Shown piece by piece: positions 29,789 through 46,085 of a stretch of DNA of 64,000 nucleotides; position 1 is the stretch's first letter; each line of letters starts with the position of its first letter. The translations under genes were made by a program, and so were the position numbers. A model generated the notes under the pieces. The model worked only from the letters and a program-made list of their open reading frames with translations. It was not told where the DNA came from and made no database searches. The DNA comes from Mesorhizobium sp. (GTDB taxonomy: Bacteria > Pseudomonadota > Alphaproteobacteria > Rhizobiales > Rhizobiaceae): assembly GCA_004017535.1 (NCBI GenBank), contig SAJS01000005.1, forward strand, positions 124,001 to 188,000, read 5' to 3'.

Positions 29789-30059
29789 AGCGCTCTAGCC
29801 GGGAACGCCTACAGCGAGTTGCTCAGCAATAGCTGGGAAAACGGCCCGAGGGAAGAATGGTGCGAGGCATTTTAAGAAAAATCTAATACACTTTAGACGG
29901 CAGATAACAGCAACCGCAAACCAAACCTCATTCTTGCGAACGAGCCGGCGAAACCGGACGAAATCTCACGCGTAACTCTTCCGTGTATTCAGCAGCAGTA
30001 TGCAGGCAATGCTTGCATGCCGCAGTGCTGAGTGAGTTGTAACTGAAAAGGAGAGTGTT

Positions 30060-30635: not shown

Positions 30636-30759
30636 GATATGCTGCAAGACAGCTTGGTCGGGAGTGCCGGACCGGCCGTGAGGCTCTGCGGCATCTCCTA
30701 CCGCATCGCCGCCATGGCTGGCGGCGCGTTGACGAGAACCCTCGGCCAGTCGGAAAACT

Positions 30760-30784
30760 GCCGCCTTTGGCGGCGGGCTTTCTG
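30760..30784 (+). terminator. Possible terminator after the repeat-protein gene
   Basis: A perfect 6-bp stem GCCGCC-TTT-GGCGGC followed by GGGCTTTCT. It is about 125 bp after the gene stop. The T tract is poor. Confidence 0.4.
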
Positions 30785-30905
30785 CTTGCCTGCCGTCACG
30801 GGAGGTCCCGACGGCCTGTTAACCACACCTGCATTGAAGCTAATATGTTAGGACTTCCTTTGCGCTCGCGCTCCACAATAAGCCGGTAGCAGTGGGAGCA
30901 ACGGC

Positions 30906-31691
30906 ATGCGCATCGATTTGTCCCCGACAAGCTGGGGCAGGGTCGTGGTGGTCACCGCCGCCGGCACAGCCTTTTTCATTGCCGTCGCCTTCTCCGTCGA
31001 TTCCTTCAATTTTCCCTCGCTGTCGCCGCAGGCGCTGCTCTGGGCGAAACTCACGGATCTTTTCCTGCCGCTTGTCCTCGGCGGCTCCTTTCTGTTCTTC
31101 CTGATGTGGAAGATACGCCAGCTGGCAATCACGCAAAAGGAGCTCAGCGTCATCGCCGCGACCGACAGCTTGACCGCGGTCTTCAACCGCGGCGCTTTCT
31201 CGATGCTGGTCGAGGCCTATCTCGACCAGGCACGCAACCAGACTGTCGCCGACGCCGGCGCGCTGCTGATCGTCGATGCCGACCATTTCAAGTCGATCAA
31301 TGACCGCCTGGGCCACGACTGCGGCGACCAGGCGCTGAGGTTGATCGCCGCGACGATCAAGGGGCAACTGCATGGCGCCGACATCGTCGGACGCATCGGC
31401 GGCGAGGAATTCGCGGTCTTCCTGCCCGGCGCCGATGCCACACGTTCCTTCTTGGTCGCCGAATCCATCAGGCGTCGCATTCGCGAGGCCGAGTTTGCCC
31501 CCGACGGGCGGCCCTGGCCGCTTTCCGTGAGCATCGGCGGCATCGCTTTCAGCGGCCCGACCACCTACCACGACATGTTCCAGGTCGCCGACCGCCATCT
31601 TTACAAGGCCAAGTCCAACGGCCGCGACCAGGTGAGCTTCGAGAGCCGGCGCAGCGGGACGGCTGGCAATGCCGGCGGCACCATGCACTAA
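30906..31691 (+). CDS. Diguanylate cyclase with membrane anchor
   Basis: A 261-residue protein. Two transmembrane helices (VVVVTAAGTAFFIAVAF and LFLPLVLGGSFLFFLMW) are followed by a short linker helix and a GGDEF domain: ATDSLTAVFNRGAF, DADHFKSINDRLGHDCGD, and an active-site GGEEF near residue 164. Catalytic residues for making c-di-GMP from two GTP are present. The inhibitory-site RxxD is changed to HGAD, so product inhibition at that site is probably weak. The stop TAA is formed by the first bases of a family B repeat. Confidence 0.93.
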   Translation: MRIDLSPTSWGRVVVVTAAGTAFFIAVAFSVDSFNFPSLSPQALLWAKLTDLFLPLVLGGSFLFFLMWKIRQLAITQKELSVIAATDSLTAVFNRGAFSMLVEAYLDQARNQTVADAGALLIVDADHFKSINDRLGHDCGDQALRLIAATIKGQLHGADIVGRIGGEEFAVFLPGADATRSFLVAESIRRRIREAEFAPDGRPWPLSVSIGGIAFSGPTTYHDMFQVADRHLYKAKSNGRDQVSFESRRSGTAGNAGGTMH

Positions 31692-31796
31692 AGCATGTCT
31701 CCCGAAAGTGGGAATCGGTTTCGGGATAAAGACATGCGTAAAATCAAAAATCTAAAGCGCATGGAGCGAATCTGAAAGATCGCGACGCGCTTTAGG
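31690..31796. repeat. Palindromic repeat family B
   Basis: Full two-hairpin copy (AAAGCATGTCTCCCGAAA ... GCGCTTTAG), starting at the stop codon of the diguanylate cyclase gene. Confidence 0.9.
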
Positions 31797-31878
31797 CGTC
31801 CCTTGGCGCCATCAAATGGTCCGTTCATCCTTTAGCGGCTAGTGTCGGCGGCTGGCCTCAGCCGATCCGCGAGCGACA

Positions 31879-32147
31879 GTGTTCGATCTCATCGACTTCA
31901 AGGCGGTGCTGATCATCGCCCTCATCTTCACCCCGCTGGAGCAGCTCCTGCCGCTCGAGGCTCTGCTCACCGCCGACATCGGCTTCTATCTTGCCCATCG
32001 CGCCTTCCGCGCGGTGCCGTTCCTGTGGCGCTTCCAGCCATCCACCACTCGATCGAGGAGATGGACTGGCTGGCTGCGCGCCGCGTGCACCCGGTGGACC
32101 AGATCCTGACCAGGCCGAAGCCTCAGCCGCCGGCAAACCCGGAATAA
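31879..32147 (+). pseudogene. Decayed sterol desaturase / fatty acid hydroxylase family gene
   Basis: The start reads FDLIDFKAVLIIALIFTPLEQLLPL (GTG start) and jumps directly to ADIGFYLAHRAFRAVPFLWRF, the second half of the family core, so a long internal part is missing. At about 32035-32038 one base is lost, after which the next frame reads AIHHSIEEMDWLAARRVHPVDQIL, the His-box region (HAIHHS) of these di-iron hydroxylases. The sequence then ends early. An internal deletion, a frameshift and a 3' truncation together mark it as non-functional. Confidence 0.82.
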
Positions 32148-32239
32148 CGGTAAGGAAAAGCCTCTCGTCAGGTGAACTGGCCCGGGGGCAGTTCATTGGC
32201 GGCGGGCCTGCCCGGGACGATGGTCGTTTGCCGTAAGGT

Positions 32240-32542
32240 TCAGGCGGCAAAGCCGCCATAGCCGCGCGCGACCGGCTTCACCGAAACGATCGGCTGGTCC
32301 GACGGCCACAGAATGCCGGCCGTCACCGCGAAGGTGATCAGCGCATCGCGCGCGGCCTCGGCCGAGATTTCTCCGCTCCGCGCGGCCTCGCAGGCTTTCA
32401 CCGCGGCGCCGTAGCTGATGCGCCGGCGCGACGGCGGAAACTCGGTCAGGAAGTCATGCATATCAAACAGCGAGGCGATCATGCGCTTGTGGCCGGCGCC
32501 GACGGTAAGGGCGACCGGGGTGAAGAACATTCTGTCGTACAT
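32240..32542 (-). CDS. DUF982 domain protein
   Basis: A 100-residue protein matching the rhizobial DUF982 family: FFTPVALTVGAGHKRMIASLFDMHDFLTEFPPSRR, then YGAAVKACEAARSGEISAEAARDALITFAVTAGIL. The function is unknown; many paralogues exist in rhizobial genomes. The ATG at 32542 removes an implausible Arg/Pro-rich extension. It lies 143 bp downstream of the helicase gene on the same strand. Confidence 0.87.
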   Translation of the reverse strand: MYDRMFFTPVALTVGAGHKRMIASLFDMHDFLTEFPPSRRRISYGAAVKACEAARSGEISAEAARDALITFAVTAGILWPSDQPIVSVKPVARGYGGFAA

Positions 32543-32684
32543 TGAGACCTCGTCTGTTGGCTGCGGAGGCGGCGGGCCTCCGGACGCCACACAACGCGGG
32601 CGTGCGGCGTGAGGTTCCGCGCACGCGGATTTTTCCGTCCTGGACCTGATCCGTCGCGTGAATCGGCAGGAGGGGACAGGCGGC

Positions 32685-34766
32685 CTATTTCCACATGCCG
32701 CGCATGCGGGCGCCAAGGTCGACCTTGACGCCCGGCCGCTGGCGCGGGTCGTCCTTGAGCGCCGCACTCGCCCAGGACGACTGCTCGAAGGCCGGAAGCA
32801 TTGAGGCCGGGATGAAGCGGGTGCGCGAGGCATAGACATGGCGGTCGCCGCGCGCCGCCTGGTTGTGCGGGTAAAAGCGCTGCGGCACGACGAGATGCAG
32901 ACTGTCCTTGGCCCGGGTCATCGCCACATAGAGCAGCCGGCGTTCCTCCTCGATATCCTCCTTGGTGCCGACGCCGAGATCGGCCGGGATGCAGCCGTCG
33001 ACCGTGTTCAGCACGAAGACGTTCTTCCATTCCTGGCCCTTGGCGGAGTGGATGGTCGACAGGATGAGGTAATCCTCGTCGCGATGCGGCGGCCCGGCCT
33101 GGTCGCTGGTGGCGTCGGGCGGGTCGAGCGTCAGCTCGGTCAGGAAGCGTTCGCGCGACGGGTAGGTCGAAGCGATCTGCTCGAGCTGCAGGAGATCGGC
33201 GCGTCGCGTGAACGCATCCTCATGGATGCGTTCCATATGCGGTTCGTACCAGAGCCTGATCCGCTCCAGATCCGCCGGCCATTTGGCGCCGGCGCGTAAG
33301 CCGCTATAGATGTCGAGGAACACCGGCCAATCCTGCGCCGCGCGCTGCGGCGGCCGGAAGCGGGCAAGGCCGAGCGTCTCGTCGAGCGATGTCGCCATGG
33401 CATCCACGATCTGCGAGGCGGCGGACGGGCCGATGCCCGGCATCAACTGCAGCACGCGGAAACCGGCGACGCGGTCGCGCGGGTTCTCGGCGAAGCGCAG
33501 CATCGCCAGCATGTCCTTGACATGCGCGGCGTCGAGGAATTTCAGCCCGCCGAACTTGACGAAGGGGATGTTGCGGCGCGTCAGCTCCACCTCCAGCGGC
33601 CCGCTGTGGCTCGAGGTGCGAAACAGCACCGCCTGCGCCTTCAGCGCCGTGCCGGCCTCGCGTTCGGCCAGGATCGCCTGGCAGACATAATTCGCCTGCT
33701 CGGCCTCGTCGCGTACGCTGACCAGCTGCGGCCTGTGCGAGGACCGGCGCTCGGTCCACAGATTCTTGGTGAAGCGCTCGCTGGCCTCGCCGATCACCTT
33801 GTTGGCTGCGGCAAGGATCGTCTCACTCGAGCGGTAATTGCGCTCCAGCATGACGACCGCGGCTGCTTGCGCGAACTGCTTTGGGAAATCGAGGATGTTG
33901 CGCACTTCGGCGGCGCGGAAGGAATAGATCGACTGCGCGTCGTCGCCCACCACCGTCAGGCCGGCGCCGTCCGGCTTGAGCGCCAGAAGGATCGAGGCCT
34001 GCAACCGGTTGGTGTCCTGGTATTCGTCGACCAGCACATGGTCGAAGCGGGAACCGAGGTGAGCGGCGATTTCCGGCTCGGCCGCCATCTGCGCCCAGTA
34101 GAGCAGCAGGTCGTCGTAATCGAGCACGTTCTGCGCCTGCTTGGCCTCGACATAGGCCGCGAACAGCTCCTTCAGTTGCTCCGCCCATGCCGCGCACCAG
34201 GGGAAGGCGGAGCCTAGCACCTCGTCCAGTGGCGCCTGTGCGTTCACCGCGCGCGAATAGATCTGCAGGCAGGTGCCTTTGGTCGGGAAGCGGCTTTCTG
34301 TTTTCGAGAATCCCAGCTCGTGCCGTGCGAGGTTCATCAGGTCGGCCGAATCCTCGCGATCATGGATGGTGAAGGCCGGATCGAGCCCGATCTGCTCGGC
34401 GTAGTCGCGGAGCAGCCTGGCGCCGATGCCGTGGAAAGTACCTGCCCAGGCGAGAGCGTCGGCGATGATCGCCGCGTCGCGCCCCAGCACCTCGCCGGAA
34501 ATGCGCTCGACCCGCTTGGCCATCTCGGCCGCGGCACGACGGGAGAAGGTCATCAGCAGGATGCGGCGCGGATCGGCGCCCTTGACGATGAGATGGGCGA
34601 CGCGATGCGCCAGCGTGTTGGTCTTGCCGGAGCCGGCGCCGGCGATCACCAGCAGCGGCGCCGCCACCTTGCCGTCGCCATGCACCACCGCCAGCCGCTG
34701 CTCATCATTCAGCCGGGCAAGATAAGCGGGCGTCTCGAAGGACGAATCACGGGCGGCGATGTTCAT
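32685..34766 (-). CDS. UvrD/Rep-type superfamily 1 DNA helicase
   Basis: A 693-residue 3'-5' helicase with motif Q (LNDEQRLAVVHGDG), Walker A GAGSGKT near residue 42, motif Ia LMTFSRRAAAEM, Walker B LVDEYQDTN near residue 246, GDDAQSIYSFRAAEV (motif III), LERNYRSSETIL (motif IV), and the C-terminal ILSTIHSAKGQEWKNVFV and RRLLYVAMTRAKDSLHLV (motifs V/VI). It is like short UvrD/PcrA homologues rather than AddA or RecB, since no nuclease domain is present. A role in DNA repair or replication is likely. No operon partner. Confidence 0.93.
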   Translation of the reverse strand: MNIAARDSSFETPAYLARLNDEQRLAVVHGDGKVAAPLLVIAGAGSGKTNTLAHRVAHLIVKGADPRRILLMTFSRRAAAEMAKRVERISGEVLGRDAAIIADALAWAGTFHGIGARLLRDYAEQIGLDPAFTIHDREDSADLMNLARHELGFSKTESRFPTKGTCLQIYSRAVNAQAPLDEVLGSAFPWCAAWAEQLKELFAAYVEAKQAQNVLDYDDLLLYWAQMAAEPEIAAHLGSRFDHVLVDEYQDTNRLQASILLALKPDGAGLTVVGDDAQSIYSFRAAEVRNILDFPKQFAQAAAVVMLERNYRSSETILAAANKVIGEASERFTKNLWTERRSSHRPQLVSVRDEAEQANYVCQAILAEREAGTALKAQAVLFRTSSHSGPLEVELTRRNIPFVKFGGLKFLDAAHVKDMLAMLRFAENPRDRVAGFRVLQLMPGIGPSAASQIVDAMATSLDETLGLARFRPPQRAAQDWPVFLDIYSGLRAGAKWPADLERIRLWYEPHMERIHEDAFTRRADLLQLEQIASTYPSRERFLTELTLDPPDATSDQAGPPHRDEDYLILSTIHSAKGQEWKNVFVLNTVDGCIPADLGVGTKEDIEEERRLLYVAMTRAKDSLHLVVPQRFYPHNQAARGDRHVYASRTRFIPASMLPAFEQSSWASAALKDDPRQRPGVKVDLGARMRGMWK

Positions 34767-35139
34767 CGCCCATCAAGCATCGTTTCCGCTTTGTTCGCAA
34801 TAATTTCCTCGCGTTGCGGGAGAGCCGGGAGGGGACCGCAGCGGCCGGAGAGGAGGCTGAGCCGGTGGTGGGTGGGCGCATGCATTGTCTATGGAGCGCT
34901 GGTCGACCCCCACTCCGTCTCGGCTTCGCCGAGCCACCTCTCCCCCGATCGACGGGGTTGAGGAAAAGCGCCGAGCTTCCAGCAACGCTCCCTTCCTTTC
35001 CCTCCTGAGGGGGAAAGGTGGCGCTGCGAAGCAGCGACGGATTGGGGGAACCACGTGGCAAGCAAACCTCAGGTCGATCAGTCACGCCGTCACAGACGAT
35101 GTATGCATGGCGTAGACGAAGGTGGGGCGAGCAAGGGCG
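34767..35139. other. Intergenic region with a degenerate palindromic element
   Basis: About 370 bases. From about 34905 to 35053 there is a mosaic of short inverted repeats: GTCTCGGCTTCGCCGAG, CCCCGATCGACGGGG, CCCTCCTGAGGGGG and GCGCTGCGAAGCAGCG, bounded by CCCCCACTCCGTC and GACGGATTGGGGG, which are imperfectly complementary. It is probably related in type to the element inside the EamA gene. No credible gene was seen. Confidence 0.6.
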
Positions 35140-35310
35140 CTACCGATTCGGCTCCACCCCCATTGCCGCTGACTGGCGCCGCAACTTGCGCCTCTCATCG
35201 CCCGGCATGTCCAGCGGCGCGACATCGCCGGGCACTTCGTCGATGATCCTCACGGCGACGCGATAGGCGGTGTAGGCGAAAAGGCCGGTAAGCAGCAGGC
35301 GGATCATCAT
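35140..35310 (-). CDS. Small single-pass membrane protein (56 residues)
   Basis: An open frame of 56 codons starting MMIRLLLTGLFAYTAYR, with one N-terminal hydrophobic helix followed by a charged tail (IIDEVPGDVAPLDMPGDERRK). GAGGAG lies only three bases before the first ATG and six before the second, strong support for translation. Codon third positions are GC-rich like neighbouring genes. The family is unknown. It is divergent from the small lipoprotein gene at 35436. Confidence 0.68.
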   Translation of the reverse strand: MMIRLLLTGLFAYTAYRVAVRIIDEVPGDVAPLDMPGDERRKLRRQSAAMGVEPNR

Positions 35311-35435
35311 TATCTCCTCATGCGGTTCGATTGGCTTTCAACCGGACGCGGGCCGGTTGGTTCCCCCTCACGCGCAACCAAACCGCCACCGCCTCGTTTG
35401 CCCTTTATGAAAGGGGCGAACGAGAGGAGGTCGTC

Positions 35436-35618
35436 ATGATGAAGCTTCCTGTGCTGCTGGCTCTTGCGGCAGGGCTCGTGCTCGCTGCCTGCGACAACAG
35501 CGTGCAACCCACCAAGGCGCCGGGCGACGAGGTCAACCAGAACCCTCAGGTTGACAAGAACCCGGTGCCGAAATCGACCACGGGCGGCGACCAGCCGGGC
35601 ACGCCTCCGAAGCAATAG
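35436..35618 (+). CDS. Small lipoprotein
   Basis: A 60-residue protein: MMKLPVLLALAAGLVLAACD is a lipoprotein signal with lipobox LAAC, and the short mature part (NSVQPTKAPGDEVNQNPQVD ... PGTPPKQ) is hydrophilic and Pro/Asn-rich, probably disordered. GAGAGGAGG precedes the ATG by five bases. Function unknown. Confidence 0.75.
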   Translation: MMKLPVLLALAAGLVLAACDNSVQPTKAPGDEVNQNPQVDKNPVPKSTTGGDQPGTPPKQ

Positions 35619-35829
35619 GGCAGGGCGAGTTGAATTGTCGTCAGCTTCGAACGAAGAAGGCCGGCGCTGCTTGGGAGGAAGCTGGATAGCGCCGGCCAAG
35701 CGGGAAATCAGGCCCGCCGCGCAATCCAACATACCTGAGTCTCGGCCTTTCGTCATGGTGCGATCGCGCTAGCCGGCTACAGTCAGTGGAAACACCCGGA
35801 AAATCCTGACGCTGCGCGAGTGGCGCTGC

Positions 35830-36798
35830 TTACGCCACCGCCGCGCGTGCCGGCTGTCCGCCGGCGATCTCGGTGTCGAGCTGGCGCTGCGTCAGCGCCG
35901 CTTCGGCCAGGATCCAGTGCTTGAACAGCTCCACCTTGCGGGCGCCGAGCGCCTTGATGGGGCTGACGAAGTACCAACCCGCCGTGTTGGGGTGATGGAC
36001 CGCGAAGGGAGCCACCAGCCTTTCGGCGCGGATATCGCTTGCCATATAGGCGCGGTTGGCGACGGCAAAGCCCATACCGGCATTGGCCGCTTCGTAGGAC
36101 ATCATGCAGCTATCGAAATAGACGCTTCTCGTCTCGCCAAGCACGAAGCTCGCGCCGGCGAAGCCCAGCCACGACTGCCAGTTCTGCGTGCAGGTGTCAG
36201 AATGCAGCAGCGTGAAGTAGCGCAGATCCTCCGGCACCACCCTCGACAGCGGCTTGTCGCCCAGCACGTCGTGAAACAGCTTGCGGCTGCACACCGGCGT
36301 CAGGTCTTCCTTGAACAGCAGTTCCGAGGTGAGGCCGGGGAAATTGCCGTCGCCGTAGCGGATCTCGAGATCATATTCCGAGGTCGAGAATTCATGCGTG
36401 GCGTAGGATGTCGACACCCGCATCTCGATGTCGGGATATTGCTGCTGGAAGGTCATCAGCCTGGGAAACAGCCAGCGCGCCGCGAAGGTCGGCAGCACGC
36501 AGATCCGCAGCACATGCGCCTGCGACTGGCCGGTGGCCTCCATGCTTGCCGCCACGATCCGCTCCAGCGCCTCGCGCACGCGCGCCACATAGGTCTCGCC
36601 CTCCGGCGTCAGCGACACCGCGTTGCCGCCGCGCTCGAAGATCTTGAAGCGCAGCTGGTCCTCCAGGCTTTTCACACGCTGGCTGACGGCGGAAGCGGTG
36701 ATAAACTGCTCCTCGCCGGCGCGCGTGAAATTCCTGTGCCTCGCAGCGCTTTCCACGATTTTCAGCGAGTTGAGGTTGACCTGACTGAGCAGACGCAC
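35830..36798 (-). CDS. LysR family transcriptional regulator (GcvA-like)
   Basis: A 322-residue protein with an N-terminal winged helix (NLNSLKIVESAARHRNFTRAGEEQFITASAVSQRVKSLEDQL) and a periplasmic-binding-like effector domain (VLRICVLPTFAARWLFPRLMTFQQQYPDIEMRVSTS). The GTG at 36798 is the only start before the helix-turn-helix, with AAGG nine bases upstream. It is divergent from the 2OG-oxygenase-like gene, the obvious candidate target. Confidence 0.9.
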   Translation of the reverse strand: MRLLSQVNLNSLKIVESAARHRNFTRAGEEQFITASAVSQRVKSLEDQLRFKIFERGGNAVSLTPEGETYVARVREALERIVAASMEATGQSQAHVLRICVLPTFAARWLFPRLMTFQQQYPDIEMRVSTSYATHEFSTSEYDLEIRYGDGNFPGLTSELLFKEDLTPVCSRKLFHDVLGDKPLSRVVPEDLRYFTLLHSDTCTQNWQSWLGFAGASFVLGETRSVYFDSCMMSYEAANAGMGFAVANRAYMASDIRAERLVAPFAVHHPNTAGWYFVSPIKALGARKVELFKHWILAEAALTQRQLDTEIAGGQPARAAVA

Positions 36799-36862
36799 GG
36801 GGTTCGACCTTAAGCTGGGCTTACGCTACCACCAGCATTCCTAAATTTACAGGGGTAGGCGT

Positions 36863-36879
36863 TTAAATGACTGTTAACC
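36863..36879. promoter_or_regulatory. CtrA-type site TTAA-N7-TTAACC
   Basis: A perfect match to the alphaproteobacterial CtrA full site (TTAA, seven bases, TTAA, here followed by CC). It is centred about 40 bp before the ATG of the 2OG-oxygenase-like gene and about 70 bp before the LysR GTG. Binding is inferred. Confidence 0.6.
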
Positions 36880-36909
36880 AAGTGTTGCCCCCATCTTGGA
36901 GAAAGTACA

Positions 36910-37743
36910 ATGAACGCCCATACAATTCCCGAACTGCGTTGTGCAATGAGCCGTGAGGCCATCATTGGTCATGAGACCGCCTGGAAAGTCTCGACCTTCG
37001 GCGTCGCCCAGTATCGTCACGGTTACGACCCGGCTCTGCTAGCCGCAATCGAGGAAGCCGCCCTGAAGCTGAAGGCCAGCCATGCCGTTCACAAACACCT
37101 CGACCTCACCTTTATCACCGGCGCCGACCGCTATATTCCCGAGATCAAAGAGCTTTTACACGACAAGCTGCGCTTGGAAAGTCTGTCCGACATGATGGGC
37201 ACCAAGCTCGAACCCTATCCGCTGTCGATCGTCGGTTCGACCGTCACCTTCATGAACCCCAGGGATGGTGCCGTCGAATGGCATTGCGACGGCGTCCCGG
37301 TGACGGAACTCATCCCGCTGTCGATCAGCGACCCTCTCATCGGCGGTCATCTTGAGATCTACTGCGACGATTCCGAGACCGGCCGGTCGATCCTGGAATC
37401 CGGCCGCGACCTGCCGCGCAACAAGATCATGCGCATCGACCACAAGATGAACTACGCCACGCTCGGCCAGTTCCTGGGCGTGCTCCACCGCACCGCGCCG
37501 ATCCAGCTCGGCGAGCGCGTCACGCTTGTGCTCAACCAGCGCTCGGCGACCAAGCCCTATGTCGACGACAACCGCATGTTCTACCTCGCTGCCGACAACG
37601 ACCATGACCGTGCCTGGGTGAACGAGCTGGCCGAGGATGTCTGGACCAACCAGCTGCCCGCCTATCGCCGCCATGCCGAGGAGCATCCCATGCCGCAGCC
37701 GGCCGCGGAGACGGTTTCCGGCGGGGCAAGGGAGTCGTGGTAG
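36910..37743 (+). CDS. Putative Fe(II)/2-oxoglutarate-dependent oxygenase-like protein
   Basis: A 277-residue cytoplasmic protein. A possible HxD metal motif is seen in DGAVEWHCDGVPVTELIPL (His and Asp near residues 120-122), and LGVLHRTAPIQLGERVTLVLNQRS near residues 185-208 could supply the distal His and the 2-oxoglutarate-binding Arg. The pattern fits a double-stranded beta-helix oxygenase acting on a small molecule, but no family name is certain. It is divergent from a LysR gene with a CtrA-type site between, and its stop overlaps the start of the EamA exporter, suggesting modification and export of one compound. Confidence 0.6.
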   Translation: MNAHTIPELRCAMSREAIIGHETAWKVSTFGVAQYRHGYDPALLAAIEEAALKLKASHAVHKHLDLTFITGADRYIPEIKELLHDKLRLESLSDMMGTKLEPYPLSIVGSTVTFMNPRDGAVEWHCDGVPVTELIPLSISDPLIGGHLEIYCDDSETGRSILESGRDLPRNKIMRIDHKMNYATLGQFLGVLHRTAPIQLGERVTLVLNQRSATKPYVDDNRMFYLAADNDHDRAWVNELAEDVWTNQLPAYRRHAEEHPMPQPAAETVSGGARESW

Positions 37744-38900
37744 TGACCAACGATCCGGTCGAGCGCCAGCCGCCCTCAGCGTCGCTGAGCCTCGGCCCGG
37801 CCGTGCCGGACTGTCGAGACCGTTCCAGCGCCGCCCCCGCGGCGGCGCTGGCCTTCGCCCTCGGCGCCGTGGCGCTGTGGGCGACCAACGCCCTGGTCGG
37901 CAAGACGCTGCTTGCCCTCTATCCGGTATCGCAAGTGCAGTTCCTGCAATTTTGCGGGGCGGCCGTCGTGTTTGCGCTGATCCGGCTGATAAACGCCTCT
38001 CCTTCTCCCCTTGTGGGAGAAGGTGGATCGGCGCGTAGCGCCGAGACGGATGAGGGGTGTTCCAGCGAAGTGAGACGTTGGCGTTCCCTGGAACACCCTT
38101 CATCCGACCTCGCCTTGCGAGGTCACCATTCGGGGGCGAGTCACGGGTCTCGCCCCGTCCTTCGGACCCCACAAGGGGAGAAGGGGACGTTCGCGCTCGC
38201 CTATGCCGTCGGCTTCCTGGGGCTGGTCGGCACAATGGTGCTGCAATATATCGGCTTCGCCTCCATGCCGGTCATCGAGGCGAACCTCGTCGCCTATACC
38301 TGGCCGCTGATGACCGCCGCGGCGGTTATCCTGCTGGGCCGGCCGCGCCGTCCTCTGTTGCTTGGCCTGGCCGCGGCTGTCGGCTTCGTCGGCGTCGCGC
38401 TGGTCATTTCCGGAGGGCGCGCCCATTTTTGGTTCAACAGGGCCTGGTTCGAAGGCGGCAGCGTCGTCGGCTATCTCGCCGCTTTCGGCTCGGCGCTCTG
38501 CATGGCCTTCTACTCGCTTACTGTCGGCCGCCTTGGCGTGCCGCCGGAGCGGCTGCTTTTGCCCTCGGCGCTGATCGGCGTCGCGCTCACCTTTGCCTGG
38601 TCCCTGCATGACGGCGCTGGACGCCTGACCGGTGCGCACCTCCTGCTCGGCCTCTATCTCGGCGCCGGCCCGATGGGGCTCGGCTACTATTTCTGGTCGA
38701 GCGCGGCAAAGCTCGATCACGGCGGCAGGATAGCGGTCGTCGCCTATCTGACGCCGATCGCTTCCACGTTTCTGCTGACCCTGTCGGGCGAAAGCCTGTC
38801 GATGACGGCTGTTGCCGGCGCCGTCCTCGTCATTGGCAGCTGCCTCGCGGTCGGCATCGAAGGTACGGAGACCAGGCACAATGTCCAGAATGCCCGTTGA
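37743..38900 (+). CDS. EamA/DMT family transporter interrupted in frame by a palindromic repeat
   Basis: A 385-residue predicted transporter; family members are ~300. Ten transmembrane segments can be traced: AAALAFALGAVALWATNALVGK (TM1), then after an extra segment FALAYAVGFLGLVGTMVLQYIG onward to MTAVAGAVLVIGSCLAVG. Residues ~86-149, in the loop after TM2, are hydrophilic and encoded by a ~190-bp repeat (37998-38187) with terminal inverted repeats; the reading frame stays open through it. It starts with GTG at 37743, overlapping the oxygenase stop (GTG at 37737 possible). Whether the protein still folds is unknown. It probably exports a product of the upstream enzyme. Confidence 0.82.
   Translation: MTNDPVERQPPSASLSLGPAVPDCRDRSSAAPAAALAFALGAVALWATNALVGKTLLALYPVSQVQFLQFCGAAVVFALIRLINASPSPLVGEGGSARSAETDEGCSSEVRRWRSLEHPSSDLALRGHHSGASHGSRPVLRTPQGEKGTFALAYAVGFLGLVGTMVLQYIGFASMPVIEANLVAYTWPLMTAAAVILLGRPRRPLLLGLAAAVGFVGVALVISGGRAHFWFNRAWFEGGSVVGYLAAFGSALCMAFYSLTVGRLGVPPERLLLPSALIGVALTFAWSLHDGAGRLTGAHLLLGLYLGAGPMGLGYYFWSSAAKLDHGGRIAVVAYLTPIASTFLLTLSGESLSMTAVAGAVLVIGSCLAVGIEGTETRHNVQNAR
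37998..38187 (+). repeat. Palindromic element with terminal inverted repeats inside the EamA gene
   Basis: Left end TCTCCTTCTCCCCTTGTGGG (37998-38017) and right end 38168-38187 are inverted repeats matching in 19 of 20 positions. Inside, GGATGAGGGGTGTTCCAG pairs with CTGGAACACCCTTCATCC (17 of 18), ACCTCGC-CTT-GCGAGGT forms a hairpin, and GGGGCGAG pairs with CTCGCCCC. The whole unit could fold into one large structured RNA. No coding signature of a transposase is present. Confidence 0.88.
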
Positions 38901-39102
38901 CGAGAACGAACGTCGCGCCAGACAGGAGGCGCACTGGCTGGTCAGGGAATTTGGCGCGGAAGCGCCGCTCTATGCGGCCATGAAGGCGGAAAAGGCTATC
39001 GAGCAAAAGGATTTTGGCCGCTGCGCGCGCTGGAAACGCGTGCTGGAAATCCTGTCGGACAGCCCTTCGGCGAATGTCGGGCGCGGCGTCGCCGTCAAAT
39101 GA
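38881..39102 (+). CDS. Small conserved cytoplasmic protein
   Basis: A 73-residue hydrophilic protein (SRMPVDENERRARQEAHW ... ARWKRVLEILSD), predicted helical, with many charged residues. It overlaps the end of the EamA gene by 20 bp and is likely cotranscribed. Similar short proteins with AMKAEKAIEQKD-like cores occur in rhizobia as I recall; the function is unknown. ATG at 38890 is an alternative start. Confidence 0.65.
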   Translation: MSRMPVDENERRARQEAHWLVREFGAEAPLYAAMKAEKAIEQKDFGRCARWKRVLEILSDSPSANVGRGVAVK

Positions 39103-39446
39103 GCGATTTGCCCCGGCGTCGCCGAATCGCGAATGGCCCACATCCAGCCGGCGGATTGTCGTTGCCGAGGCCGGACTTGGCCTGAACTTCGATTTTTCAG
39201 CAACTTCCTTGGCCGACCCAGTGCAACCGGAGGTTATACCTATCCAGCCGGACCGCCGGTTCTGTAAAGCATCTGTTATAGCTATTAGAAATCCTAACTT
39301 GCGCGTTTGCAGCTCGCGTAGAAACAATACCCCGTATTGAGTCGCGTAGCTTTACTGACTCTGGACGGTCCGTTGGGGGACAAGTCCAATTCGATACACC
39401 GACAAAAGTCTTAAAAACGAGCTGGCGATTTGAGGGCCGGCAGAAG
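39103..39446. other. Intergenic region upstream of the MucR gene
   Basis: About 344 bases. The right half (39230-39420) is clearly AT-richer than the rest of the window and should contain the mucR promoter, possibly with MucR self-binding sites, which favour AT-rich DNA. No gene or strong palindrome was found. Confidence 0.5.
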
Positions 39447-39899
39447 GTGAAAAAATTGTCCAACATCGACGATAAGACCGCAATCGAACTGACCGCCGAC
39501 ATTGTCTCCGCCTATGTCGGCAACAATCCGCTCCCTGCTTCCGGCCTGCCTGATCTGATCGCCAGCGTCAGCGCGTCGGTGCGCAAGCTCGCCGGCGGCA
39601 GTGTCGTCAAGGAGGCGGTGGCGCTGACGCCCGCTGTCAACCCGAAGCGTTCCGTCTTCCCGGATCACATCATTTGCCTGGAGGACGGAAAGAAGTTCAA
39701 GTCGTTGAAACGCCACCTTGCGACCGATCACAACCTGACGCCGGACGAATACCGCGCCAAATGGGGCCTGCCTGCCGATTATCCGATGGTGGCGCCCAGC
39801 TATTCGGCGACCCGCTCGGCGCTGGCCAAATCTTCCGGCCTCGGCCGCAAGCCGGCCGGCGGTGACGCGGGCAAAGGCAAGCGCAAGGGCAAAGCCTGA
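39447..39899 (+). CDS. MucR/Ros family transcriptional regulator
   Basis: A 150-residue protein: an N-terminal helical oligomerisation part (ELTADIVSAYVGNNPLPASGLPDLIASV), then the Ros-type zinc finger HIICLEDGKKFKSLKRHLATDH with Cys, Asp and two His ligands, and LTPDEYRAKWGLPADYPMVAP, with a Lys/Gly-rich tail. MucR proteins are AT-rich-DNA-binding regulators of exopolysaccharide, motility and symbiosis genes in rhizobia and of virulence in Brucella. It starts with GTG at 39447. It is monocistronic and followed by a repeat. Confidence 0.94.
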   Translation: MKKLSNIDDKTAIELTADIVSAYVGNNPLPASGLPDLIASVSASVRKLAGGSVVKEAVALTPAVNPKRSVFPDHIICLEDGKKFKSLKRHLATDHNLTPDEYRAKWGLPADYPMVAPSYSATRSALAKSSGLGRKPAGGDAGKGKRKGKA

Positions 39900-39909
39900 G
39901 GCCGGACCT

Positions 39910-40012
39910 AAAGTATGTCTCCCGAAAGTGGGAACCGGTTTCGGGATAGACATGCTTAAATCAAAAACTTGAAGCAGGTAGCGTGAATCCTTTTTCTCGC
40001 GACCTGCTTTAA
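39910..40012. repeat. Hybrid copy of palindromic repeat family B
   Basis: The first half is family B (GTATGTCTCCCGAAA ... TTTCGGG ... GACATGC). The second hairpin is unrelated to the other copies: GAAGCAGGTAGCG ... CGCGACCTGCTTTAA. This shows that the two halves are exchangeable modules. Confidence 0.85.
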
Positions 40013-40116
40013 GGCAATGAATGACGCCGCGCCATCGTCATGGCGCGGCCGTCGGACCGCGCGGCATGTTGCGTCGCTGCGTGGCTGGTTTCCGAAAACG
40101 CGCCGAACACCCGGCA

Positions 40117-40311
40117 TCAGTTGCGGGGCGCCTTGTTCTCGTGGTGGCGGTCGCGATCCTGCTCGGCGGCGAGGCTGTCCGCCTCGACGGCGGTCATTTC
40201 AAGAAAATAGACGAGCATCTGGTAGCGCGTGCGCGAGAGCATCTTCGCCAGCCTGCGCACGATCTCCGCCACATATTTCAGCGTTCGCAGATCGTTGACC
40301 GCTTCGCCCAT
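40117..40311 (-). CDS. Small helical protein of unknown function
   Basis: A 64-residue protein (GEAVNDLRTLKYVAEIVRRLAKMLSRTRYQMLVYFLEMTAVEADSL...), predicted mostly helical, basic in the middle, with no signal peptide. AGGAG lies six bases before the ATG. Upstream on the same strand are three 16-bp direct repeats that could be a regulatory array. The family is not recognised. Confidence 0.68.
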   Translation of the reverse strand: MGEAVNDLRTLKYVAEIVRRLAKMLSRTRYQMLVYFLEMTAVEADSLAAEQDRDRHHENKAPRN

Positions 40312-40328
40312 CGTGAGCTCCTGACATA

Positions 40329-40377
40329 GCCGAGTTATTGTTGGGCCGAGTTATTGTTGGGGCCAAGTTATTGTTGG
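40329..40377. repeat. Three 16-bp direct repeats
   Basis: GCCGAGTTATTGTTGG occurs at 40329-40344 and 40345-40360, and with one change at 40362-40377. They begin 18 bp upstream of the ATG of the small helical protein gene, so they lie in its promoter or leader. The AT-rich repeated core stands out from the GC-rich surroundings. Confidence 0.8.
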
Positions 40378-40613
40378 CGCTCACGCGCGACTCGCGGCAC
40401 GCTCACAGATTTGCAGTTCGCGACGAAAACCGAAATCGATTTTCGACAAGCACAACGGCCGGCCCCGCAGATCCAGGCCCTTTCTTCGTGGTAACGGCCG
40501 CGCAGCGCATAAATATAGGCTGAAGCTGAACTTGTGTTCGTCCGCTTGGCCTGGTTGATTTCCGCGCCGGGAAAGCCGGTGCCGAGCGGCGCCTGGCAGG
40601 GCGGGCGCTTCCC

Positions 40614-41330
40614 TCACCCCTTATACGCGGAACAGAAGGCCGGCGGATTGTTATTGCCGATCATGGCGCAGCCGCGCTTGATCTCGTCGATCATCATGCT
40701 GCATGCGTTCTGGCCATTGCAGGGCGGGTTGGTCGCCGGCGAAACCTGGACGCATTGCGAGACATATTGGTCCGACTTGGCCTTGCCGGCGGATTGCACG
40801 CATGGTTTCGTGTCGTTCTGGCTAGCCTGGGCAGCGGCGGGTTTCGCAGGCGTGGCTTTGGCCGTCGCAGGCGCGGCTTTCGCAGGCGCGGCATCGCCGC
40901 CGCTTTGCGGCACGCAGGAGAGATCGCCCTCCGGGCATTGCAACTGGTGCTGCAACTGCGCCAGTCGCGCCTTGGTCAACTCCGCCTTGCAAGCGCCAAC
41001 CAGGCTCGAATAGATCGAGCCATCGGCATAGGGCTGGGTGCGGAAGGCGCATTCCTTGTCGCGAAATGGGATCCAGGCGCGCTGCGCGTCACGCAGGCGC
41101 TTCAGGTCGGCGGGAGCGAGACGTGCCGCCAGCGCCTTGTAGACAGCGTTGAGCCCCGCGTCGGCCGAAGCGGCATTCGCGGTCGTGCAGGTGGCAAGGT
41201 CGGCCTGCGTCTTCGCCGCCGCGCAGTCGACGGCTGCCGCGCGGGTGGGCGTGGTGAGAAACAGGCCGGCCGCGATCGCGAAAATCGCGACCGCCAGCGA
41301 GGCCGAAAGGAGCGAGGTCTTGCTCGACAT
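40614..41330 (-). CDS. Secreted LprI-like (DUF1311) protein with Cys-rich C-terminal domain
   Basis: A 238-residue protein. A signal peptide (LLSASLAVAIFAIAAGLFLTTP) is followed by a DUF1311 / lysozyme-inhibitor LprI-like domain (VDCAAAKTQADLATCTTANAA, LKRLRDAQRAWIPFRDKECAF), an Ala/Pro/Lys linker (~residues 145-180), and a second domain with about six cysteines (CVQVSPATNPPCNG ... GCAMIGNNNPPAFC). LprI-type domains can inhibit lysozyme; that role here is only a possibility. The start at 41330 has GAGG upstream. Confidence 0.85.
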   Translation of the reverse strand: MSSKTSLLSASLAVAIFAIAAGLFLTTPTRAAAVDCAAAKTQADLATCTTANAASADAGLNAVYKALAARLAPADLKRLRDAQRAWIPFRDKECAFRTQPYADGSIYSSLVGACKAELTKARLAQLQHQLQCPEGDLSCVPQSGGDAAPAKAAPATAKATPAKPAAAQASQNDTKPCVQSAGKAKSDQYVSQCVQVSPATNPPCNGQNACSMMIDEIKRGCAMIGNNNPPAFCSAYKG

Positions 41331-41440
41331 GATCTGCCCTCTGTTTGAAGCAGCCCCCGCGCTTGTGCCAGCATAGGTTGAGACAATGGCGGCGATCAAC
41401 GCCAAATTTGTGACGTGGCAAGCAAAGTGTGACCGGGGAT

Positions 41441-41516
41441 GATTGGCGAAAGCCGGGAGTGAACGATCTCACTGCTTGTGTGGAGATGCCCGGCGGGGCG
41501 GTGGGAGCGCTGCCCA
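41441..41516. repeat. Degenerate fragment of repeat family E
   Basis: GATTGGCGAAAGCCGG, then GGAGATGCCCGGCGGGG and GGGAGCGCTG match the right half of the element at 12750-12836 with many substitutions. It appears to be an old copy. Confidence 0.55.
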
Positions 41517-41529
41517 GCCAGCCTCTCAG

Positions 41530-41769
41530 TCATTCATGGGCGACGGGCCGGAGTTGTTTACCGCTGTCGATCTGGATCAGCAGGTGTTCCGTCGCGCGCC
41601 TCAGCACTGGGGAGATTGGCTGTGTCGGTGCCCCGCCCGTCGCTTCAATTGGAAGAGCAATTGGAGCGGTGTCGCTCTCGAACAGAACCACCTGCGTCGC
41701 CAGCGCCGTTGTCGTGGCGACCTGAAAGAAGATGAAGGCGAGGGCGAGATAGCGGATCACGGGCTGCAA
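41530..41769 (-). CDS. Possible small secreted protein
   Basis: A 79-codon frame whose translation begins with a signal-peptide-like VIRYLALAFIFFQVATTTALA and continues with a short hydrophilic part (TQVVLFESDTAPIALPIEA...). The start would be TTG (41769) or GTG (41760), with GGAG a few bases upstream. No family is recognised and codon use in the 3' half is weak, so this is tentative. Confidence 0.4.
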   Translation of the reverse strand: MQPVIRYLALAFIFFQVATTTALATQVVLFESDTAPIALPIEATGGAPTQPISPVLRRATEHLLIQIDSGKQLRPVAHE

Positions 41770-41885
41770 AACGCTCCGGCCGGCAAACTGGTTCCAATCC
41801 GTCCGGCTTTCGACGACCGGTCCGTGCGAGCCCTCATCAAGGCGTTGCTCTTGCGAAGCGCCGATCTCCCGTGCAAAAGCCCGCT

Positions 41886-43763
41886 ATGCTTATCATCAAC
41901 GACCTTACGCTGCGCATGGCGGGGCGGCTGCTTCTCGATCATGCCTCGCTAACCCTGCCGGCCGGCACCAAGGCCGGACTTGTCGGCCGCAACGGGACCG
42001 GCAAGACCACTTTGTTCAAGGCGATCACCGGCGATTTCCCGTCCGAGACAGGCTCGATCAGCCTGCCGAAGAACACCCGCATTGGCCAGGTGGCGCAGGA
42101 GGCCCCCGGCACCGAGGAGCCGCTTATCGAAATCGTGCTGAAAGCCGATGTCGAGCGCCAGGCTTTGCTCGAGGAAGAGAAGACCGCGACAGATCCGCAC
42201 CGCATCGCCGAGATCCACACCCGGCTGGCCGACATCGACGCGCATTCGGCCGAATCCCGCGCCGCCACGATCCTGGCCGGCCTCGGCTTCGACGATGCCG
42301 CGCAGCGGCGGCCGGCCTCGTCCTTCTCCGGCGGCTGGCGCATGCGCGTGGCGCTGGCCGCCGTGCTCTTCTCCGAGCCCGACCTTCTCCTGCTCGACGA
42401 GCCGACCAACTATCTCGACCTCGAAGGCACGCTCTGGCTGGAGAACTATGTCTCGAAGTATCCGCACACGGTGTTGCTGATCTCGCATGACCGCGACCTG
42501 CTCAACCGCGCCGTCAACTCGATCGTCCATCTCGACCAGAAGAAGCTGACCTTCTGGCGCGGCGGTTACGACCAGTTCGAGCGCCAGCTGACCGAGCAGC
42601 GCGAGCTGCAGGAAAAGAGCCGCGTCAAGCAGGAAGCGCAGCGCAAGCATATGGAATCCTTCGTCGAGCGTTTTCGCGCCAAGGCTTCCAAGGCGAGGCA
42701 GGCGCAGTCTCGCCTGAAGGCGCTGGAGAAGCTGAAGCCGATCGCCGCGGTGGTGAACGACACGGTGCGGCCGTTCTCCTTCCCCGAGCCGGTGAAGACG
42801 GTGGCCTCGCCGATCGTGGCGCTCAACGGCGTCAATGTCGGCTATACCGAAGGCAATCCGATCCTGAAGAAGATGACGCTGCGCATCGATGCCGACGACC
42901 GCATCGCGCTGCTCGGCGCCAACGGCAACGGCAAGTCGACCTTCGCCAAACTGCTCGCCGGCCGGCTGAAGGCCGAGACCGGCTCGATGACCATCGCGCC
43001 GGGCCTGAAGGTGGCGATCTTCGCCCAGCACCAGCTCGATGATTTGCGTCCCGAGGAGAGCGCCTATGAGCATGTGCGCCGGCTGATGCCGGACGCGCCG
43101 GAAGCCAAGGTACGCGCCCGCGTCGCCCAGTTCGGCCTGTCGACCGAGAAGATGAACACTGCGGCCAAGGATTTGTCCGGCGGCGAGAAGGCGCGGCTCT
43201 TGATGGGGCTATCGGCCTTCGAGGGCCCGAACCTCTTCATCCTCGACGAGCCGACCAACCACCTCGACATCGACAGCCGTGAATCGCTGATCCATGCGCT
43301 GAACGATTTTCCGGGCGCGGTCATCCTGATCTCGCACGATCGGCATCTTCTGGAGGCGACAGCCGACCGGCTCTGGCTTGTCAAGGACGGCGCGGTCAAT
43401 CCCTATGACGGCGACCTCGAGGACTACAAAACCCTGGTCACCGGCGTCTCGTCCAACCGTCGCGAGCAGAAGGAAGCCGACAAGGCGTCCAAGGCCGACC
43501 GTCGCCGCGAAGCCGCGCAGCGCCGCGCTGCATTGGAACCACTGGCCAAGGAGATCCGCGCCACCGAGGCGCTGATGGACCGCATCCGCAAGCGCATCGA
43601 CCTCATCGAGGACGAGCTGGCCAACCCGGCCATCTACGAAAAGGATCCGTCCACCGCGACGCGGCTCGCCAAGGAACGCTCGCAACTGGCGCACACGCTG
43701 GCGCTCAACGAGGACAAGTGGCTGACGATGTCGGCGGAATATGAGCAAGGGATAGCGGAGTGA
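41886..43763 (+). CDS. ABC-F family ATPase
   Basis: A 625-residue protein with two nucleotide-binding domains and no membrane part: first Walker A GRNGTGKTTL with signature SFSGGWRMRV and LLLLDEPTNYLD; linker helices ~residues 230-290 (RVKQEAQRKHMESFVERF, the P-site tRNA-interaction region); second Walker A GANGNGKSTF with LSGGEKARL and FILDEPTNHLD; and a basic coiled-coil C-terminus (KEADKASKADRRREAAQRR). This resembles Uup/YheS-type proteins that act on ribosomes or DNA. It is monocistronic, ending at a strong hairpin. Confidence 0.93.
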   Translation: MLIINDLTLRMAGRLLLDHASLTLPAGTKAGLVGRNGTGKTTLFKAITGDFPSETGSISLPKNTRIGQVAQEAPGTEEPLIEIVLKADVERQALLEEEKTATDPHRIAEIHTRLADIDAHSAESRAATILAGLGFDDAAQRRPASSFSGGWRMRVALAAVLFSEPDLLLLDEPTNYLDLEGTLWLENYVSKYPHTVLLISHDRDLLNRAVNSIVHLDQKKLTFWRGGYDQFERQLTEQRELQEKSRVKQEAQRKHMESFVERFRAKASKARQAQSRLKALEKLKPIAAVVNDTVRPFSFPEPVKTVASPIVALNGVNVGYTEGNPILKKMTLRIDADDRIALLGANGNGKSTFAKLLAGRLKAETGSMTIAPGLKVAIFAQHQLDDLRPEESAYEHVRRLMPDAPEAKVRARVAQFGLSTEKMNTAAKDLSGGEKARLLMGLSAFEGPNLFILDEPTNHLDIDSRESLIHALNDFPGAVILISHDRHLLEATADRLWLVKDGAVNPYDGDLEDYKTLVTGVSSNRREQKEADKASKADRRREAAQRRAALEPLAKEIRATEALMDRIRKRIDLIEDELANPAIYEKDPSTATRLAKERSQLAHTLALNEDKWLTMSAEYEQGIAE

Positions 43764-43801
43764 TTAGCCAATCTCCCCCACAAGGGGGGAAGATTGGCTA
43801 A
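43764..43801 (+). terminator. Hairpin between the ABC-F and oxidoreductase genes
   Basis: TTAGCCAATCT (43764-43774) pairs perfectly with AGATTGGCTAA (43791-43801), with CCCC/GGGG inside. The inner part is a family E fragment. There is no U run, so it may be a structured spacer rather than a true terminator. Confidence 0.5.
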
Positions 43802-43850
43802 TTGTCTCTGGCCCTACACCTCTACCTTAAAACCCGCTACACAGCCCCGC

Positions 43851-45956
43851 ATGAACCAGCACGCCAAGCTCCGGATCGGCCATTCGGCCTGTCCGCATGA
43901 CTGCCCCTCCACCTGCGCGCTCGAAGTCGAACTGCTCGACAACAACCGCATCGGCCGCGTCCATGGCGCCAAGGCGAACAGCTATACGGCCGGCGTCGTC
44001 TGCGCCAAGGTCGCGCGCTATGCCGACCGGGTGCATCATCCCGACCGGCTGCTGAAGCCGCTGGTGCGCGCCGGCGCCAAGGGGGAGGGCGCCTGGAAGG
44101 AAGCGAGCTGGGAAGCGGCGCTCGACCTCGTGGCGGAAAAATTCATCGCGGCCGAGGAGAAATACGGCTCGGAGACCGTCTGGCCATATTTCTACGCGGG
44201 CACGATGGGGCTGGTGCAGCGCGACGGCATCGAGCGGCTGCGGCATGCGAAGAAATATTCAGGCTTCTTCGGCTCGATCTGCACCAATCTCGCCTGGACA
44301 GGCTGGATGATGGGGGCGGGCGCCTTGCGCGGTCCCGATCCGCGCGAGATGGCGAAGGCCGATTGCGTGGTGATCTGGGGCACCAATGCCGTGGTCACCC
44401 AGGTCAACGTCATGACCCATGCGATGCGGGCGCGCAAGGAACGCGGCGCGAAGATCGTCGTCATCGACATCTACGACAACGCCACGATGAAGCAGGCCGA
44501 TCTTGGCCTGGTCTTGCGGCCCGGCACCGACGGCGCGCTCGCCTGCGCGGTCATGCATGTGCTGTTTCGCGATGGCATGGCCGACCGCGCCTATCTCGAA
44601 AAATACACCGATGATCCGCGTGGGCTGGAAGAGCATCTGCGCGCCCGCACGCCGGAATGGGCCGCCGCCATCACGGGGCTCTCCATCGCGGAGATCGAGG
44701 CTTTCGCAAAGCTCGTCGGAACGACCAAGAAGACCTATTTCCGCCTCGGCTATGGCTTCGCGCGCCAGCGCAACGGCTCCATCAACATGCACGCCGCCTC
44801 CTCGATCGCCGCCGTCACCGGAGCCTGGCAATATGAGGGCGGCGGCGCCTTCCATTCCAATTCCGGCATCTTCAAGCTAAACCAGGACGTGCTCGAAGGC
44901 ACCGCGATGCGCGATCCGAACATCCGCTATCTCGACCATTCGCGCATCGGCCCGGTGCTGACCGGTGCTGCGGACGCGCTCTATGGCGGACCGCCGGTGA
45001 CGGCGATGCTGATCCAGAACACCAATCCGGCCAATGTCGCGCCGGAGCAGCGGCTGGTGAGAAAGGGCTTTCTGCGCGAGGATCTGTTCACCTGCGTGCA
45101 CGAGCAGTTCATGACCGATACGGCCAAGCTCGCCGACGTCGTGCTGCCGGCGACGATGTTTTTGGAGCATGACGACATCTACAAGGGCGGCGGCAACCAG
45201 CACATCACGCTCGGCCCCAAGCTGATCGAGCCGCCGGAAGGGCCGCGCACCAATCACTACGTCAATGAAGAACTCGGCAAGCGGCTCGGCGTCGGCGACC
45301 GTCCAGGCTTCGGCCTGACCGAGCGCGAGCATATCGACATCATCCTCGGCAAGCGCGGGCTCGGCAGCTTCGACAGTTTGAAGGCTGAGAAGTGGGTCGA
45401 CCTGCAGCCCGACTTCGACGACGCGCATTTCATCAACGGCTTCGGCCATGCCGACAAGAAGTTTCACTTCCGGCCCAACTGGACCGGGCAGTCGGCGCCC
45501 AACCGGCCGCCGAAAAGCATGGGTCTGTTCGGCCCGGTCGAGCGGCTTCCGGAATTCCCCGACCATGTCGAATTGATCGAGGTGGCGGACGAGGAGCATC
45601 CGTTCCGGCTGGCGACCTCGCCGGCGCGCAACTTCCTCAATTCCAGCTTTGCCGAGACGCCGGTATCGAAAGCCAAGGAAGGCAGGCCGGAGCTGCTTAT
45701 CCACCGCGAAGATGCCGCCGCGCTCGGCATCGAGGATGGCGGCCGCGTCGAGGTCGGCAACCGGCGCGGCGACCTTGTGCTGCATGCCAGGTTCTTCGAC
45801 GGGGTGAAGCGCGGCGTTGTGATCGCCGAAGGCATCTGGCCGAACAGCGCGCATGAGCGCGGCGAGGGCATCAACGTGCTGACCGGCGCGGACGCGCCCG
45901 CACCCTATGGCGGCGCCGCCGTCCACGACAACAAGGTGTGGCTCAGGGCGCTCTAA
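43851..45956 (+). CDS. Molybdopterin-dependent oxidoreductase
   Basis: A 701-residue protein of the DMSO-reductase superfamily. The N-terminus has a [4Fe-4S] ligand set SACPHDCPSTC with a fourth Cys in GVVCAK. Later come molybdopterin-guanine-dinucleotide contacts (VVIWGTNAVVTQVN, KIVVIDIYDN, FRLGYGFARQRNG, MLIQNTNPANVAPEQ) and the C-terminal MGD domain (GIEDGGRVEVGNRRGDLVL). No TAT signal peptide is visible, so it is cytoplasmic. The substrate is unknown. moaD/moaE at 23.4-24.1 kb supply part of its cofactor pathway. The start at 43851 is the first Met before the cysteine cluster. Confidence 0.92.
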   Translation: MNQHAKLRIGHSACPHDCPSTCALEVELLDNNRIGRVHGAKANSYTAGVVCAKVARYADRVHHPDRLLKPLVRAGAKGEGAWKEASWEAALDLVAEKFIAAEEKYGSETVWPYFYAGTMGLVQRDGIERLRHAKKYSGFFGSICTNLAWTGWMMGAGALRGPDPREMAKADCVVIWGTNAVVTQVNVMTHAMRARKERGAKIVVIDIYDNATMKQADLGLVLRPGTDGALACAVMHVLFRDGMADRAYLEKYTDDPRGLEEHLRARTPEWAAAITGLSIAEIEAFAKLVGTTKKTYFRLGYGFARQRNGSINMHAASSIAAVTGAWQYEGGGAFHSNSGIFKLNQDVLEGTAMRDPNIRYLDHSRIGPVLTGAADALYGGPPVTAMLIQNTNPANVAPEQRLVRKGFLREDLFTCVHEQFMTDTAKLADVVLPATMFLEHDDIYKGGGNQHITLGPKLIEPPEGPRTNHYVNEELGKRLGVGDRPGFGLTEREHIDIILGKRGLGSFDSLKAEKWVDLQPDFDDAHFINGFGHADKKFHFRPNWTGQSAPNRPPKSMGLFGPVERLPEFPDHVELIEVADEEHPFRLATSPARNFLNSSFAETPVSKAKEGRPELLIHREDAAALGIEDGGRVEVGNRRGDLVLHARFFDGVKRGVVIAEGIWPNSAHERGEGINVLTGADAPAPYGGAAVHDNKVWLRAL

Positions 45957-46085
45957 CTACTTCGCCGCCTGGGCGTCCAACGCCTTGATCTCTTCTGCGG
46001 CCGCCTTGCGCGCCGCGGCGTCGACACCGGACGCCCGTTTGTCCTTGGCGTAGGCGATCAGCGCGGTGCGCGTGTCCTGTTCGCG
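45957..46085 (-). pseudogene. 3' remnant of an unknown gene
   Basis: On the minus strand a 42-codon open stretch (encoding ALIAYAKDKRASGVDAAARK and an Ala/Lys-rich end) finishes in TAG one base after the oxidoreductase gene. A stop codon lies directly upstream and no start is possible, so it looks like the C-terminal end of a lost protein. It could also be chance coding potential in GC-rich DNA. Confidence 0.3.

Follow-up and report, generated by a model that had tools for sequence, protein, structure and literature searches.

The window analysed here, a stretch of 64,000 nucleotides of Mesorhizobium DNA, carries on its forward strand, at 37737..38900, an open reading frame with a GTG start that encodes an EamA/DMT transporter of 387 residues and hosts a palindromic insert. 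Assignment of the protein to this family follows from its match to PF00892 (EamA; E 1.6e-18, 67.7 bits against a gathering cut-off of 28.2). The closest NCBIfam models are those of the YddG exporters, all with scores under their cut-offs; on the YddG equivalog model the host protein reaches 64.8 bits, where the cut-off is 300, in comparison to 87.7 bits for an insert-free orthologue. The structure matched by the insert-free orthologue L067 is PDB 5i20, which we take to be a YddG. From the end of TM2 (..LIR) to the start of TM3 (VGF..), the window gene measures 222 nt, whereas the same stretch is 60 nt long in 31 of 40 insert-free orthologues and 57-93 nt long in the other 9, in keeping with the protein length of about 320 residues that the earlier note on this DNA had estimated without the insert. 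Both the orthologue alignment and a predicted structure place the insert between helices 2 and 3, the latter being a low-confidence model (mean pLDDT 43.4) of ten helices in which residues 87-148 form a coil between these two. Judged by the topology of such transporters, this loop is probably cytoplasmic. Immediately upstream, a gene of 277 residues (36910..37743, forward strand) overlaps the start of the EamA gene by 7 nt; it has no Pfam or NCBIfam match, is present at all 70 orthologue loci, and served as the source of an independent tree. Annotators should be warned of a reverse-strand open reading frame of 359 residues (37156-38235), which passes through the opposite strand of the insert.

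The insert is a palindromic element of 190 nt at 37998..38187 on the forward strand, corresponding to about residues 88-150 and seen in the orthologue alignment; it represents the long-arm form in what we call the window orientation (F1). The inverted-repeat search defined terminal inverted repeats of 20 nt each at 37998..38017 and 38168..38187, with 19 of 20 positions paired (95% complementary). Between these lie an A hairpin module (38028..38044) and a B hairpin module (38107..38123), both recognized from sequence, fold and module comparison, which flank a central long hairpin with a loop (38047..38106) built on an inner inverted-repeat pair of 23 nt (38047-38069/38084-38106, 91%), and are followed by a long-arm extension with two small hairpins (38124..38167; sequence and fold). 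The predicted RNA fold, an outer stem around several hairpins, has an energy of -132.6 kcal/mol against a mean of -80.3 (sd 4.7) for shuffled sequences (z -11.1), and none of 200 shuffles was as stable. The repeat search and fold thus confirm the unit of about 190 bp with its repeat ends and internal hairpins that had been noticed at first sight, and its placement in frame in the loop after TM2 is equally sound, as the reading frame is open throughout 37998-38187. In size and in combining terminal inverted repeats with a stem-loop, the unit fits the description of the Rickettsia palindromic elements (RPE; roughly 100-200 bp), and, with its terminal inverted repeats, many copies and no coding capacity of its own, it also answers to the description of a MITE. 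A target-site duplication is not definable because the loop of the insert-free orthologues is too diverged. Nothing reached the gathering score in an Rfam search of positions 30000-46000.

Copies of the element are abundant in this genome. The 190-nt unit gave 72 BLAST matches in 6.86 Mb, many of which are both strands of one palindrome. Merging these over the loci read left 43 rows, which include fragments and represent 41 distinct places, as two on contig C3 had been counted twice; uniqueness of the unit, which the earlier note had named as an outcome that would count against it, does not hold. Across the genus, a short-arm query found matches in 58 of 61 genomes (0-36 per genome among the matches listed), while the long arm is rare, with 1-7 matches per genome in 7 genomes. 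The family is built from interchangeable modules, namely end arms in a short or a rarer long form, the A hairpin, the central stem and several B hairpins, and the loop of the central stem is of several types and stands in either direction. When L021, L024 and L125 are set beside other copies, the central-hairpin loop is seen to face either way with respect to the A and B hairpins, which suggests that flipping of sequence between inverted arms also takes place in other members of the family. Contigs C2, C5, C19, C25, C26, C28 and C55 of G000 start inside or next to a copy (first 215 bases), as if the repeat had broken the assembly, and the copy number is therefore probably undercounted. Among 72,556 plasmid records, 5 match the element, all partially; on the Methylosinus plasmids NZ_CP023738.1 and NZ_CP119870.1, about 50 nt resembling an arm coincide with a gene annotated as an SDR oxidoreductase. 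The element is a genus-wide, modular and apparently non-autonomous palindrome.

To place the insertion in time, we rely on an orthologue set of 71 genes (70 fetched loci and the window); the insert, whole or as a remnant, is present in 31 of these and absent from 40. The rival expectation set out at the start, that the same stretch might be found throughout the genus, is thus borne out for the 31 genes and fails for the 40, a distribution that points to an insertion that is old but belongs to one lineage, as opposed to a loop ancestral to the genus. On the gene tree, 30 rows form a single clade (100/100) in which every member has the insert or a remnant, and outside this clade the loop is short in 40 of 41 rows, the exception being a remnant in L065. 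On the tree of the upstream neighbour gene (70 rows with L066 left out, obtained by a quick method and unrooted), the division between insert or remnant and none amounts to exactly one change, on a branch with an SH-aLRT of 96. One insertion therefore suffices for the present distribution. That this change was a gain and not a loss is inferred because the insert belongs to a repeat family, as the tree is unrooted and a search of 60 other genera of the family at E 1e-40 gave no orthologue for rooting. The short remnant in L065 resembles the right end of the reversed form; this locus lies outside the 30-row gene clade, yet groups with the insert carriers on the neighbour-gene tree. The insert has suffered large in-frame deletions in L044, L046 and L055, and in L057 a different palindrome, open in frame, occupies the same site.

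The reading frame is retained wherever it could be followed. In tblastn comparisons, the alignment crosses the insert in one frame in all 29 assessable clade rows, window included; the stops that were seen sit near the C terminus, and the core is free of frameshifts and premature stops in 29 of 29. Left out of this count was L054 (3200-3420), from the M. plurifarium STM8773 assembly, which has a gap of 10 Ns inside the insert. The distance between the end arms of the EamA elements is 140, 146, 149 or 182 nt, and all 22 measurable elements have a frame-keeping length and are open, although these rows share ancestry and do not amount to 22 independent trials; ends were not found in L038, L039, L057 and L094, and L054 and the remnants were excluded. 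Copies elsewhere have a frame-keeping length in 27 of 81 cases (9/21 in this genome, 18/60 at other loci) and are open as well in 13 of 81 (3/21 and 10/60), a set from which EamA loci were removed by DNA pattern, such that a few may have been missed. When the comparison was widened to 117 copies, some of them selected for their open frames, 42 have a frame-keeping length and 24 of these are also open. In L094, deletions of one and two bases cancel each other. For 38 pairs of the same form, which are not independent of each other, pN/pS amounts to 0.68 for the insert and 0.22 for the flanks, and synonymous divergence is 0.134 and 0.259, respectively. The flanks are under purifying selection, and selection on the insert is weak at most. 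The stems are mostly kept, with 6 compensatory pairs over four groups of EamA inserts; as these are few, we do not claim selection at the RNA level. Taken together, the sequences suggest a functioning gene in which the insert is tolerated as a spacer and is probably translated. The earlier proposal of tolerance in a loop gains from the flank pN/pS and the intact frames, while its alternative, a dying gene that had kept its frame by chance, loses by them.

The insert occurs in both orientations at this one coding locus. The 31 insert rows, labelled from alignments, comprise 11 in the window orientation (F1), 10 reversed (F2), 2 of hybrid form, 3 that differ in their interior (F4), 1 with a different element and 4 remnants, and a nearest-partner comparison supports the F1, F2 and hybrid labels. 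Mapping these labels takes 18 changes on the gene tree and 17 on that of the neighbour gene, with the orientations scattered over both, and close pairs of opposite orientation exist (L032/L040, L035/L037 and L050/L053). The flanks of L032 and L040 have about 98% of bases in common, with no difference in the nearest 39 and 60; when the L040 insert was compared with the whole L032 genome, its top match was the L032 EamA insert in reverse (89% over 184 nt; 233 bits for the sister insert vs 155 for others), and the other long-arm copy in that genome differs in module order. Likewise, the L050 insert is best matched in the L053 genome by the reversed EamA insert of its sister (220 vs 152 bits), such that in 2 of 3 pairs nothing in the sister genome matches better than its reversed EamA insert. 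In the third pair, copies elsewhere in the L035 genome are closer to the L037 insert (90%) than is the sister EamA insert, which ranks sixth at 84%. The nearest relatives of the L037 insert sit in the EamA genes of other species (98%; 98% over 127 nt; 93%); its best copy elsewhere reaches 94% among the 30 loci, 6 of them EamA, fetched from a search of 99 genomes. Divergence of the insert follows fourfold divergence of the flanks poorly (Spearman 0.18, p 0.09, 90 pairs): the two are comparable in the closest pairs (0.120 vs 0.066; 0.047 vs 0.077), while in some deep pairs the insert has diverged far less than the fourfold sites, for example 0.013 vs 0.294. No exchange tract was seen in the nearest flanks, where deep pairs of the same form give 0.157 and those of different form 0.162. 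Besides orientation, F1 and F2 differ in the type of the central loop and in the left junction, and simple inversion in place as the sole cause was rejected, since both of these change with orientation. Identical long arms occur elsewhere in the genomes, and copies elsewhere approach the short-arm EamA form up to 96.7%; replacement by other genome copies may therefore contribute.

In our interpretation, to which we give a probability of roughly three in four on the sequence data, a copy of the genus-wide palindrome would have inserted once into the TM2-TM3 loop, in the common ancestor of the insert-bearing Mesorhizobium species, and would have persisted as a nearly neutral spacer whose interior is turned over by its own palindromic structure. 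With the frame kept and the gene still selected, the insert would be translated along with the rest of the protein; selection on the transporter would hold its frame and its freedom from stops, and its residues would matter little. As a set of nested inverted repeats, the insert would see its interior turn over faster than the gene: arms may lengthen or shorten and the interior may invert, leaving the orientations scattered over species, and forms may spread by exchange confined to the insert. Inversion would presumably proceed by template switching or by recombination between the arms. A more radical extension, possible but doubtful in our judgement, is that the insert acts as a reversible and exchangeable coding cassette, with an acceptable loop encoded on both strands, that inverts at its site and moves from one species to another while the flanks stay behind; the reversed element is also open in the same frame in 14 of the 22 measured EamA elements. 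Were this true, one transporter gene would possess alternative loops, possibly within one population, with no dedicated recombinase.

The mixture of forms might instead reflect an insertion hotspot, at which many independent insertions struck the loop in either orientation and only those in frame survived. Both orientations and several forms at the site, the two types of left junction, the decoupling of insert divergence from that of the gene and the different palindrome in L057 would all be expected from a hotspot, though we consider it improbable given that the site is filled in 30 of 30 clade rows and vacant in 40 of the 41 others, with one change on the neighbour tree, and that the reversed EamA inserts resemble EamA inserts of other species more closely than the copies elsewhere, none of which exceeds 94% at the loci retrieved in a search of 99 genomes. 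It is also rather unlikely that the loop has been taken into use, with a selected function as protein or RNA. Retention of at least part of the insert in 30 of 30 clade rows, a pooled pN/pS below 1, synonymous divergence lower than that of the flanks and mostly kept stems are consistent with such a function, while the large in-frame deletions in three loci, the unrelated residues encoded by opposite orientations and hybrids, the two closest same-form pairs, in which insert divergence equals or nears fourfold divergence, and the paucity of compensatory pairs argue against it. The very stable predicted fold could suggest that the insert is bypassed or spliced from the message and never becomes protein, and PMC6649704 mentions translational bypassing of palindromes for a yeast mitochondrion; a frame-keeping length and cancelling deletions, as in L094, would be needless if the insert were skipped, and frame-keeping in 22 of 22 measured elements, against chance levels in copies elsewhere, makes bypass very improbable. 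A dying gene is harder still to reconcile with the selected flanks and intact cores, and we regard it as extremely unlikely, even though the insert-bearing protein scores lower than its insert-free orthologue on the YddG model. Single insertion followed by turnover of a translated spacer remains the reading that we favor.

Further host genes were sought among frames that span other copies. In this genome, where all 43 rows (41 distinct places) were checked, a Pfam scan of the 10 element-spanning open frames besides EamA found none with family matches both before and after the element and two with a domain on the downstream side only. For 41 genomes of the genus, the matches listed yielded 36 places with a long open frame; 20 were scanned, again with no family on both sides (L198 has domains, downstream only), and the other 16 comprise 2 EamA genes, 2 that are the other strand of EamA inserts and 12 left out of the scan with the element no more than 28 residues from the frame start. 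The genus search used one reading frame of the element and the matches listed, hence further host genes may exist. The suggestion in the earlier note of a generally protein-invading element is thus not supported, as no second host gene was found among the frames scanned, and the same holds for residence in many unrelated genes, as in RPE, with Pfam families flanking the element on each side in 0 of the 30 further spanning frames scanned.

Our findings carry coding palindromes beyond the Rickettsiales, which live inside cells, into a genus of free-living rhizobia. The mosaic palindromes of rhizobia, RIME among them, are modular repeats that are usually intergenic; set beside RIME by description, the Mesorhizobium element is likewise modular and palindromic, with one copy inside a gene. 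A literature search, most subscription literature being outside its reach, found no description of a palindrome within coding sequence in Mesorhizobium. Among enterobacteria, the small palindromic repeats ERIC/RU-1, RU-2 and RU-3 are described as mostly intergenic, with some fused in frame to genes (PMC2759123); their hosts are different, and reversed forms at one coding site are not reported in the available text of that source. In coding DNA of yeast, template switching between inverted repeats is described to homogenize the arms and invert spacers inside genes (PMC8604942), in tracts of up to five neighboring residues, whereas the insert studied here is of about 60 residues, in bacteria, with a mechanism that we infer. 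The series of orthologues offers natural material for measuring rates of palindrome inversion and exchange inside a selected gene, and for following how repeat DNA turns into protein sequence. The closest precedent is provided by the RPE, translated palindromes that are tolerated in frame within protein genes and were found in 19 reading frames according to PMC2229807. As described there, they share with the Mesorhizobium insert a size of about 100-200 bp, terminal inverted repeats, a long stem-loop and an in-frame position, here in one gene and in 29 of 29 assessable clade members. The RPE occupy many genes, whereas for the Mesorhizobium element we found one host gene and one ancestral event, retained through about 30 species and in both orientations. 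By analogy, the Mesorhizobium case appears to work like an RPE insertion, to which it would add a coding palindrome tied to a single ancient event, kept in about thirty species, and the observation that both orientations are possible for the same coding insert.
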